Positions 59,669 through 64,000 of a stretch of DNA of 64,000 bases are shown here, piece by piece. The position numbers and the translations under genes are program-made. The stretch's first letter is position 1. Each line of letters starts with the position of its first letter. The DNA comes from Treponema denticola (lineage in GTDB: Bacteria > Spirochaetota > Spirochaetia > Treponematales > Breznakiellaceae): NCBI GenBank assembly GCA_020719845.1, contig DYPP01000001.1, forward strand, positions 101,509-165,508, written 5' to 3'. The notes beneath the pieces were generated by a model that worked only from the letters and a program-made list of their open reading frames with translations, was not told the DNA's origin and searched no databases.

Positions 59669-60733
59669 CTATTCGTCGACCAAACTATTCCGCACTTCCA
59701 TGATTTGCGGTAATTTTTCCATAAAGCAATCGACCAGATGGGGCGAGAAATGGGTTCCCCGGTTCGTTTTGATGTAATCCACCGCCTCATCCACCGTCCA
59801 CCGTCGTTTATACGGCCGCGTGGAAGTCAGGGCGTCAAAAACGTCGGACACCGCCACGATCTGTCCCGACACGGGGATAGCCTCACCCGCCAAGCCCTTG
59901 GGATAGCCCGTTCCATCCCACTTCTCGTGATGGTTGAGGGCTATTTCTTCCGCAAGGCGCAGGAGTTCCGAATCGTCCCCGGCCAGGATATGGGCGCCGA
60001 TCAAGGTGTGGGTCTTCATCGTTTCCCACTCGGCTCCCTCCAGCTTGCCCGGTTTCAACAGGATGGCGTCGGGAATCCCGATCTTGCCGACATCGTGCAT
60101 CGGCGCGGCGTGCAGCAGGTTCTCCAGTGCCTGATCGTTCCAGCCCAGGGACTGGGCCAGAATTACCGCCGTGCGGCTTACCCGCAGGATATGCCGCCCG
60201 GTTTCGTTATCCCGGTACTCCGAGGCGCGTCCCAGCCGCTGAACGATCTGCATACGGGTTTCCAGCAATTTCGAGGTCCGTTGCCGCACCATGAGCTCCA
60301 GCGTTTCTTTTTCCGCGTTCATCAGGCGATACGCCGTATAGGCTTCGAGCATGGTTCGGACCCGGGCAAGCAACTCGTGCATATCAAAGGGTTTGGTGAT
60401 ATAGTCCCTAGCGCCGCTCTCCAATGATTTGAGGATGAATTCTTTACCGTGCTGCGCGGTCAGCATGATCACCGGCGGCAAAAGGGGGTCATTGAGAGCC
60501 CTCAGCTGATCCAGAATCTCCAACCCGCTCAGATGCGGCATGTTGATATCCAAAAGGATCAGATCGGGACGGCTCGTTGCGTACAGTGGCAGAACGGTGC
60601 GGGGATCCTGCACCGCGATAAGGTTGGTATATCCCTTGCTCTCCAGCATTTTTCCGAGGACTTTCAGGTTTACCGCCTCGTCATCCACCATCATGATCCG
60701 CGACGATGACAAATATTCCCACAGCGCATCCAT
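59669..60733 (-). CDS. Response regulator with HD-GYP cyclic-di-GMP phosphodiesterase domain
   Basis: The product, about 354 residues, has an N-terminal receiver domain (about 10-130; the phospho-acceptor Asp lies in LLDINMP, with the conserved Lys in TKPFD). A helical linker follows, then an HD-GYP domain (about 165-345) with HD in MHDVGKIGIPD and HHEKWDGTGYPKGL. HD-GYP enzymes break down cyclic di-GMP. ATG 60733 has an AGGGGGA ribosome site. An in-frame ATG at 60772 overlaps the upstream gene as ATGA and has no ribosome site, but could allow coupling. It is the likely output of the two kinase-type genes upstream. Confidence 0.92.
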   Translation of the reverse strand: MDALWEYLSSSRIMMVDDEAVNLKVLGKMLESKGYTNLIAVQDPRTVLPLYATSRPDLILLDINMPHLSGLEILDQLRALNDPLLPPVIMLTAQHGKEFILKSLESGARDYITKPFDMHELLARVRTMLEAYTAYRLMNAEKETLELMVRQRTSKLLETRMQIVQRLGRASEYRDNETGRHILRVSRTAVILAQSLGWNDQALENLLHAAPMHDVGKIGIPDAILLKPGKLEGAEWETMKTHTLIGAHILAGDDSELLRLAEEIALNHHEKWDGTGYPKGLAGEAIPVSGQIVAVSDVFDALTSTRPYKRRWTVDEAVDYIKTNRGTHFSPHLVDCFMEKLPQIMEVRNSLVDE

Positions 60734-60768
60734 TATGTCCCCCTGTCTTTGTGTCCGACGCTCTTTTG

Positions 60769-62214
60769 TCATGAAGAATAATCCAGCAAGGTATCGACCA
60801 GCTTTTGCAAGTGCCGCCCCGCCGACATTATTTCCATAATTGAGTCCCTTTGATCCCTGGGCAAAGCAGGGTTCGTTTCCGCCTCGAGCAACTGGGTAAA
60901 CCCGAGAATGCTGTTCAACGGCGTATATAATTCATGGCTCATGCGTTCATAGAAAGAAGATTTTTCTCTATTGGCGGTCTCCGCGGCAAACAGAGCCGCC
61001 CGTAATTCATCGGTCCTTTGATCCACCATCTGCTCCAGGCGGCTTGAGTATTCCTCAAGACGCTTCTTCTGGTTGACCTGATCGGTAACATCCTGAACCG
61101 TACCGATGGAGCGCTCCGCTTTACCCTGCTCGTCGTACGAGGATTGCCCCTGGGCGTGAATATGCTTTGTCCGCTGATCGGGAAACACCAAACGGTACGC
61201 CATATCGTATGCCGTGTGGCCCCGAACAGAGTCCCTAAACGCGTTGAACGCCCGTTTCCGATCCTCCGGGTGGAGGCGGTCATGGATGATTTTTTCCAAT
61301 TGCCCGGCGGCGAGGGGGCTTTTCATCGGATCAAATTCGAATATCCGGGCGGCTTCTTGCGAATACACCGCCAATTCGGTGCTATGGTTGATCTCCCAAT
61401 GCCCGATGTGGGCCAGCCGTTGGGCTTCCAGCAACCGGGCCTCGTTCAGGGCAAGCGTATCCCGCAGGGACCGCGCTTCCTGGATATCGCGCATGCTGGT
61501 CGAAAAATATTCCGGAATTCCCTTGGCGTTCTTATGGACCATGAGCACCTGGGAAACGGGAATCTCCGTACCATCTTTGGTCAGTATCGCCGATTCCCCC
61601 GACCAGGAACCCTCTTCAAGCGCCTGGGGAATGGCGGTCTCGATCACTATCTTGGCGGCCCACGCGGGGTGAACGTCGGGGATGCGGTGATCCGAGGGAT
61701 CCTCATCGTTCGGCCATCCCAACACGCGCCGACCGGATGCGTTCATATACGTTATCTGCAAATCCATGGTCGCCGTCGATATGAGGTCGGCGGTGGTCCT
61801 GAGGATCGCGTTCAGACGCGTTTGCTCGCTTCGGTGATGCCATTCCTCGGTAATATCTTCAATATCGCCCATGATGCCGATGGGGCGATTGTTTTCATCC
61901 CGATAGGTCGATTTGGTGATCCGCACCCAGCGCAGGGAACCATCGGCCTGGAGGGGATGGGCTTCTATCGTTTTGGGAATCCCCAACCGAAGCACCTCTC
62001 CATCTTCTTCCCGGAACGAGCGGGCGATTTCTTCCGGGAAAAGGTCGTAGTCGGTTTTGCCGAAGATTCCCTCTTGTTCCAATCCCAGCACCCGCGCGTA
62101 GGCGTTGGTGCAGAAAACGTAGGTGGACTCAAGGTCCTTTAGAAACATCCAGCGGGGATAGGATAGAAAACCCCGCAAACCGGCTATGACCTGGGCCCAC
62201 TGCCTGGGATCCAT
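60769..62214 (-). CDS. Three-PAS protein with HisKA domain but no ATPase domain
   Basis: The 481-residue product contains three PAS domains (about 20-125, 130-250 and 265-390), then a coiled coil and a HisKA dimerisation domain with the phospho-His in ERMSHELYTPLN near residue 435. It stops about 45 residues later, at LLDYSS, and the next gene starts immediately. No HATPase_c motif (N, G1, F or G2 box) follows in any frame I could see. It therefore cannot phosphorylate itself alone. It abuts the hybrid kinase with no gap. Confidence 0.88.
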   Translation of the reverse strand: MDPRQWAQVIAGLRGFLSYPRWMFLKDLESTYVFCTNAYARVLGLEQEGIFGKTDYDLFPEEIARSFREEDGEVLRLGIPKTIEAHPLQADGSLRWVRITKSTYRDENNRPIGIMGDIEDITEEWHHRSEQTRLNAILRTTADLISTATMDLQITYMNASGRRVLGWPNDEDPSDHRIPDVHPAWAAKIVIETAIPQALEEGSWSGESAILTKDGTEIPVSQVLMVHKNAKGIPEYFSTSMRDIQEARSLRDTLALNEARLLEAQRLAHIGHWEINHSTELAVYSQEAARIFEFDPMKSPLAAGQLEKIIHDRLHPEDRKRAFNAFRDSVRGHTAYDMAYRLVFPDQRTKHIHAQGQSSYDEQGKAERSIGTVQDVTDQVNQKKRLEEYSSRLEQMVDQRTDELRAALFAAETANREKSSFYERMSHELYTPLNSILGFTQLLEAETNPALPRDQRDSIMEIMSAGRHLQKLVDTLLDYSS

Positions 62215-64000
62215 CTACGCGCCTGGGCCCTGTTTTTGGGGGGCGCATTCCTTCAGGGCATCATTTATCGCTTCGATGAAGACCGGAAGGTCCAGGGGTT
62301 TGGTAAGGTATTTGTCGAACCTGGCATTTTTACCCTTGTCCAGATCGGCGGGCATGGCGCGGGCGCTGAGCGCCATAACCGGAATCGAGTGCCCCCACTG
62401 GCTTTCCCGGATCATCCGCAGGACTTCGTATCCATCCATTTCCGGCAAGCCCAAATCGAGCAATACCAGATCGGGGATATGGATCGCCGCCAACTCCAGA
62501 CCCAGGGACGGGGTATGGGCCGTGAGCAGGCGGATATGGCTCTGCTTTTCAAAAATACGCCCCATCAGTCTTAGGTTCGCGGGGTTGTCCTCTATGTACA
62601 AAACCGTATGCCCGGCGTCCGCGCACTGGACAAAGTCCAGGCTGTCCGGAGGAAGCTCGGGATCGAAGGAATTGGCTTCGGCTGCCCGTTGCGGCAGGGT
62701 AATCCAGAATCGGCTCCCCTTGCCGACCTGGCTTTCCGCTTCTATGGTTCCGCCCATCAATTCCACCAGACGCTTGCTGATCGTCAGCCCTATGCCGGTG
62801 CCTTCGATTTCGCTCCCTTCGGCGCCCAGACGGTTGAAGGGAGTAAACAACTCCGGCATTTTTTCCGGGGAAATCCCCTGGCCCGTATCCTCCACGATGA
62901 AGCGGAGGGAGCCATCCTGTACCGCCACCGAAACGTGTACCCACCCATCGGGGCGATTGTACTTTATGGCGTTGGAAAGAAGATTCACCAGGATTTGTTT
63001 CAGCCGTACCCGATCGGCGTAGACGTACAGCCCCGTGTCGGGACAAGCCTTGTCGACATGAACACCGTGTCTGGCGGCGATGGGCGCCACCAGATTGAGA
63101 CAATCGTCCACCAGGGAGTCACAAAGTACCGATTCGGGGGACAAATCTATCCTGCCGCTTTCAATTCTGGAAAGATCCAGCACTTCATTGATAAGTTCCA
63201 GCAGGTGCTTGCCGGCTTTCAGAATTTCTTGAATGAAGTCAATATTGGTCGGAGACAGGGACGCTTCCAGTTCGAGCAGCTGACCAAACCCCAGGATGGC
63301 GTTGAGGGGCGTCCGCAGTTCATGACTCATGGATGAAAGAAACTCGCTCTTGGCCCGGTTCGCCTCCCGGGCGTTTCCCTCGCTTGCCCGCAGCGCTGTT
63401 TCCGCATTTTTGCGCTCCGTGATATCCTGAACCAGCCCGAGCATGCGGGAGGGATTCCCTGCGGCATCCGATACAACGTTGCCGTTTCCTTGCAGCCAGC
63501 GGATCTGCCCGTCCGGCCAGACGCAACGGTACTCGATTTTGCGCTGTTGCCCGGTTTCAACGCAGTTTTGGACCGCATCGGCCACCATCTGCCGATCCTC
63601 GGGATGTACGGAGTTCAAAAAGTTATCGTAGGAGGTTTCCAGGATCCCATCGGGGTATCCGAAAAGGGGCGCGATGCGTTCCGACCATACCGTTTCGCCG
63701 GTTTTGAAATTCAAGTCCAAGGTGCCGATATCCGCGTACTCCTGGGCCATGCGGAGCCTGCGTTCGTTTTCCTTGAGTCTTTCCTGAGTGGCCACCAGCT
63801 CGGTAACCACGTTTGAAATGCCGATGTAATGGGTCAGTTTGCCCGCATCGCTCCAGACCGGGGCGATGCGGATATCGTTCCAGAACAGGGAGCCGTCTTT
63901 TCGATAATTGCGAATGAGGTTTTGTGTGGGCCGTTTCTCATCGATGCCCTTTCGGATTTCCCGCAGACCCTCTTGATTTTTATCGTCTCCTTGTAAAAAT
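62215..64000 (-). CDS. Hybrid histidine kinase with LOV-like PAS domain, 5' end outside window
   Basis: The visible 595 residues run from the window edge. First is a PAS domain with LOV-family wording (FLQGDD at the edge, then NYRKDGSLFWND, then HYIGISNVVTE). A second PAS domain follows. The HisKA domain has FLSSMSHELRTPLN, and the HATPase_c domain has a complete N box (NLLSNAIKYN), G1 (VEDTGQGIS) and G2 (GTGIGLTISKRL). A C-terminal receiver domain carries the phospho-acceptor Asp in LLDLGLPEMDG. The frame is open at base 64000. The photo-adduct Cys of a LOV domain would lie just beyond the edge, so light sensing cannot be confirmed. Confidence 0.88.
   Translation of the reverse strand, partial: FLQGDDKNQEGLREIRKGIDEKRPTQNLIRNYRKDGSLFWNDIRIAPVWSDAGKLTHYIGISNVVTELVATQERLKENERRLRMAQEYADIGTLDLNFKTGETVWSERIAPLFGYPDGILETSYDNFLNSVHPEDRQMVADAVQNCVETGQQRKIEYRCVWPDGQIRWLQGNGNVVSDAAGNPSRMLGLVQDITERKNAETALRASEGNAREANRAKSEFLSSMSHELRTPLNAILGFGQLLELEASLSPTNIDFIQEILKAGKHLLELINEVLDLSRIESGRIDLSPESVLCDSLVDDCLNLVAPIAARHGVHVDKACPDTGLYVYADRVRLKQILVNLLSNAIKYNRPDGWVHVSVAVQDGSLRFIVEDTGQGISPEKMPELFTPFNRLGAEGSEIEGTGIGLTISKRLVELMGGTIEAESQVGKGSRFWITLPQRAAEANSFDPELPPDSLDFVQCADAGHTVLYIEDNPANLRLMGRIFEKQSHIRLLTAHTPSLGLELAAIHIPDLVLLDLGLPEMDGYEVLRMIRESQWGHSIPVMALSARAMPADLDKGKNARFDKYLTKPLDLPVFIEAINDALKECAPQKQGPGA

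Follow-up and report, generated by a model that had tools for sequence, protein, structure and literature searches.

A three-PAS HisKA gene without an ATPase domain, probably a lineage-specific loss beside its likely parent kinase

Within the window, the whole 64,000-nucleotide stretch of Treponema denticola DNA analysed here, a gene for a three-PAS protein with a HisKA domain stops before any HATPase domain, at a position between a hybrid histidine kinase gene and one encoding a REC-HD-GYP response regulator. Is this middle gene a component that the operon keeps in truncated form, or a kinase that has lost its catalytic domain, and would what remains still act on its neighbours? The locus is made up of the following features:

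62215..63999, reverse strand: hybrid histidine kinase PAS-HisKA-HATPase-REC, 767 aa to the contig end, running off the window (Pfam)
60769..62214, reverse strand: coding sequence of the PAS-PAS-PAS-HisKA protein without HATPase, 481 aa (open reading frame and Pfam)
61846..62160, reverse strand: PAS 1, aa 19–123 (Pfam PAS_4; predicted fold)
61477..61794, reverse strand: PAS 2, about aa 141–246 (comparison with the G258 orthologue described below; predicted fold)
61090..61413, reverse strand: PAS 3, about aa 268–375, PAS_3 type (Pfam; predicted fold)
60967..61086, reverse strand: coiled signalling helix, about aa 377–416, running into HisKA (AlphaFold2 helix 377–445)
60778..60966, reverse strand: HisKA/DHp, aa 417–479, with H427 within SHELYTPLN (Pfam HisKA; predicted helices 377–445 and 453–480)
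60734..60768, reverse strand: spacer with a likely Shine-Dalgarno AGGGGG (60744–60739), before the likely HD-GYP start at 60733 (sequence; orthologue N-termini)
59669..60733, reverse strand: REC-HD-GYP response regulator, start corrected from 60772 (Pfam Response_reg and HD_5; alignment)

The HisKA domain of the middle gene matches its Pfam profile over positions 2–61 of 66 (49.7 bits against a cut-off of 26.9), and its phospho-acceptor box SHELYTP is intact, as an earlier sequence-only reading had stated: the phospho-histidine is H427, and E428 and T431 are both in place. The same residues (H427-E-L-Y-T431) make up the HE/DxxN/T phosphatase motif. The C-terminus lies 54 residues past H427, where the second DHp helix ends; the distance of 45 residues given previously holds for a count that begins where the H-box ends, but not at the histidine itself. 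AlphaFold2, supplied with a seven-sequence alignment, predicted three PAS folds, in line with the three PAS sensors proposed earlier and the three PAS-type regions seen by Pfam, followed by helices 377–445 and 453–480, which comprise both DHp helices (mean pLDDT 82.1 and pTM 0.42, with about 57–76 for the hairpin). As modelled, the DHp hairpin is complete. Pfam found no HATPase match on the 481-aa protein, which accordingly falls outside the definition of a functional sensor histidine kinase (HisKA plus HATPase).

The absence of the ATPase domain extends beyond the protein itself. No HATPase sequence was found between the end of HisKA and the next gene, bearing out the statement that none is left over, and the only HATPases on the contig are that of the hybrid kinase and one belonging to an unrelated kinase at a distance of 120 kb. 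Across the genome (G000), 23 of the 24 HisKA matches have a HATPase close by on the same strand, the middle gene being the sole exception; the ATPase-less HisKA gene is thus real, and unusual within its own genome. No stand-alone HATPase gene was found near it, and the adjoining hybrid kinase could supply a HATPase. Outside the window, the HisKA and HATPase of one other kinase lie in different open frames, resembling a frameshift (G000:C80:17399-17945). The HATPase part might have been dropped from the contig during assembly, which the draft state of the genome (252 contigs) and the closeness of the locus to a contig end (about 3.7 kb) would favour; however, the junction is clean, both flanking genes are intact, a good ribosome site is in place and the contig carries no stray HATPase fragment, so that we regard such an artefact as very improbable.

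The three genes are ordered hybrid kinase, DHp protein and REC-HD-GYP output. The stop codon of the hybrid kinase directly adjoins the ATG of the middle gene, which makes this a tight tandem, presumably read as one transcript. The four-base ATGA overlap described earlier with the downstream gene exists if that gene starts at 60772, but AGGGGG stands five bases ahead of an in-frame ATG at 60733, and in the alignment the orthologue N-termini begin near this codon. The HD-GYP gene therefore probably starts at 60733, leaving a 35-base gap after the middle gene and no overlap. We rejected a fusion of the two products through frameshifting or readthrough, as the frames differ, no slippery site was seen and the HD-GYP gene has its own ribosome site.

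The operons of relatives, gathered by searches with the HD-GYP regulator at family, order and phylum level, place the middle gene in context. Identity of the HD-GYP proteins to that of the window is 73% in G262, 66% in G258, 63% in G142, 60% in G237, 58–59% in G507 and G497, and 54% in G889. The slot is empty in G262 and G142, where the hybrid kinase directly precedes the HD-GYP gene, and in G237 it holds a full-length CHASE-HisKA-HATPase kinase (L059:2008-3897), suggestive of a second, independent duplication into the same operon slot. The HATPase of this G237 kinase groups with that of the genome's own hybrid kinase (0.97). G497 and G507 keep the HD-GYP gene with neither a hybrid nor a middle kinase before it; in G889 no middle gene was seen beside the HD-GYP gene, whose upstream side is the contig start. 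Elsewhere in G142, contig C100 encodes a protein of 220 aa that combines CBS-like sequence with a HisKA-like segment (HNIKNPLQ) and has no HATPase behind it (L060:3283-3945). Among the HisKA matches of that genome it alone lacks a nearby HATPase, and a convergent HD-GYP gene faces it.

The informative relative is G258, which belongs to the same order but a different family and is also deposited as MAG BP7.bin59 (L061). Its operon has, in the same slot between hybrid kinase and HD-GYP regulator, a 658-residue protein (L058:5871-7847) with a HATPase at residues 541–648 (90.2 bits). This protein is 47.7% identical to the window gene over residues 4–246 (PAS 1 and 2) and 53% over residues 370–480 (signalling helix and HisKA), and the two have the unusual H-box SHELYTP in common. 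Judged by position and similarity, it is the syntenic orthologue of the window gene in the form of a full-length kinase. The two differ in the complete HATPase and in the third PAS of G258, which cannot be aligned with PAS 3 of the window gene; the sensor part would thus have been rearranged as well, as if by a domain swap or a separate gain between PAS 2 and the signalling helix.

That the truncated form might be a kept design had been hinted at, and an orthologue with a complete HATPase had been named beforehand as the finding to count against it. With G258 providing one, another full-length kinase in the G237 slot and nothing in those of G262 and G142, that idea is not supported, and the ATPase-less state is very probably a derived, lineage-specific loss. 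Its direction is argued by parsimony from two sequences: the joined HisKA and HATPase of G258 are the usual arrangement and truncation has been seen once, which favours loss over gain. Searches at family, order and class level turned up no second truncated copy, nor any other copy of the middle gene beyond that of G258, and the families of G258 and G262 yielded no further operon. Pattern scanning of contigs from GTDB genomes gave no relative for the single protein as query; with the two-sequence alignment as query it recovered the G258 locus once more, and otherwise just distant PAS or HisKA kinases. G497, G507 and G889 came from the phylum search, and in none of the three was a middle gene seen adjoining HD-GYP.

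Where did the transmitter come from? The likeness of its HisKA to that of the adjoining hybrid kinase, remarked upon earlier, stood up to comparison: the two agree at 56% of 64 residues, while no other HisKA compared from this genome exceeds 38%. In the HisKA tree the window and G258 middle genes group together (support 0.95) and are nested inside the clade of the hybrid-kinase HisKAs of these operons, at a clear distance from the other compared HisKAs of the genome, from which we infer that the middle-gene transmitter probably arose by duplication from the hybrid kinase within such an operon. The copy probably diverged quickly in both lineages, and an R-to-Y change in the H-box, being common to G258, would be older than the ATPase loss.

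Loss of the ATPase domain leaves two broad outcomes. The gene may be a dispensable remnant, in which a middle kinase that was not essential recently lost its HATPase by deletion and its remaining 5' part is drifting, a reading to which we give a substantial probability, somewhat under even. The variable occupancy of the slot among orthologous operons and the full-length orthologue in G258 fit with this, as does a third-position GC of 0.59 in the HisKA segment compared to 0.67–0.73 in surrounding genes, a difference within noise for 73 codons. Less expected of a remnant are the 481 open codons, the three PAS folds, the intact H-box and the lack of any ATPase debris, and also the evolutionary rate: the window HisKA evolves no faster than that of the ATPase-bearing orthologue (Tajima chi-square 0.06–1.5), although after a recent loss no acceleration would yet show. 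We lean slightly towards a functional accessory over a dead remnant, the latter being nearly as likely.

On the functional reading, the transmitter of the hybrid kinase would have been copied next door to give a separate three-PAS kinase, still full-length in G258, and the HATPase would then have been cleanly removed in the window lineage. The middle protein should consequently be unable to autophosphorylate, and what is left would be a PAS-controlled four-helix DHp dimer that keeps the receiver-contact and phosphatase residues. Its likeliest targets would be the receivers of the operon (the REC domains of the hybrid kinase and the HD-GYP regulator), on which it could act as a PAS-gated phosphatase, a phosphate sink or a relay, or alternatively it might pair with the hybrid kinase; the predicted outcome is a tuning of c-di-GMP breakdown. 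The related HisKA, the complete DHp hairpin and the tight tandem make interaction with the hybrid kinase and the HD-GYP regulator plausible. An ATPase-lost kinase serving as accessory sensor on the operon receivers is our best overall explanation, at about even confidence, with its partners and every biochemical step proposed from sequence. This functional reading takes in phosphatase, relay and mixed dimers as variants, so the confidences attached to them overlap.

The likeliest single activity is that of a phosphatase. In EnvZ and NtrB the DHp by itself suffices for phosphatase activity (PMC3510030), and the T/N residue needed is present here as T431, making a DHp-only phosphatase possible. 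EnvZ specificity has been reprogrammed at T250/L254/A255 (PMC2991266). The equivalent positions, H+7, H+11 and H+12, are N, G and F in the middle gene and the hybrid kinase alike, and the other aligned HisKAs of the genome mostly carry a different residue at H+12. N, G and F are common at these positions among hybrid kinases, and the match hints only weakly that the two proteins may serve the same receivers. Against a functional role count the single sequence from which the truncated form is known, the weaker phosphatase activity of DHp alone than of DHp with CA (PMC3510030), and the fast evolution of a HisKA only 56% identical to its presumed partner.

As for a relay, the DHp could stand in for an Hpt between the two REC domains, for which the gene order speaks. 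The genome has no small free-standing Pfam Hpt (its 10 Hpt matches all lie in open reading frames of at least 344 aa), which leaves room for such a role, and DHp-like phosphotransferases are known, for example ChpT (PMC3433190). A designed carrier is nevertheless unlikely: the gene is missing from the operons of G262 and G142, and, its orthologue in G258 being a complete kinase, the slot did not originate as an Hpt. With the hybrid kinase and HD-GYP working as a pair in G262 and G142, and HD-GYP kept without either kinase in G497 and G507, an essential relay step is not implied; on synteny, both the conserved-truncation and the essential-relay readings were dropped. Equally improbable are mixed dimers, in which the DHp would pair with that of the hybrid kinase and be phosphorylated by, or poison, the ATPase of its partner. 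Common descent at 56% DHp identity and a precedent, the ChrS form whose frameshifted CA leads to heterodimers with the paralogue HrrS and a changed output (PMC9491836), are in its favour, but the identity is moderate and both middle-gene HisKAs have sharply diverged from the hybrid kinase, as expected of insulated dimers.

Returning to the accessory-sensor reading, its most novel form, in which transmitter duplication followed by ATPase loss turned this three-PAS DHp protein into a sensory switch between hybrid kinase and HD-GYP phosphodiesterase, remains tentative and rather doubtful. If true, it would be a natural case of a kinase converted, inside the operon to which it belongs, to work solely as phosphatase or relay; in other respects the gene is an ordinary lineage-specific truncation. 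G258 and the window genome form a natural before-and-after pair, in which a switch from kinase to phosphatase or relay is testable.

Several known systems bear comparison. ChpT and Spo0B are dimeric DHp bundles whose phospho-histidine can serve receivers, and the middle protein resembles them in its predicted DHp dimer with a phospho-histidine; both retain a degenerate CA-like domain and lack PAS sensors, whereas the middle protein has PAS domains and nothing after the DHp. In a SMART survey, 1556 of 42417 HisKA proteins (3.66%) lacked HATPase, with 711 showing the HE/DxxN/T motif; such proteins were termed 'potential split bifunctional kinases' (PMC3591291). The middle gene belongs to this recorded class, as its chain carries HisKA with an HExxT motif but lacks a HATPase; in its case no separate HATPase partner gene was identified and the neighbour is a complete hybrid kinase. 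The ChrS pseudokinase of Corynebacterium glutamicum (PMC9491836) likewise had its CA domain destroyed and is the paralogue of a working kinase; there, however, a laboratory frameshift struck a classical kinase, while in the window gene a PAS kinase next to a hybrid kinase would have lost the domain naturally and cleanly. To these systems the locus adds an example, placed by its relatives, of a kinase that appears to have lost its ATPase while keeping its sensors and phospho-acceptor beside its probable parent kinase.
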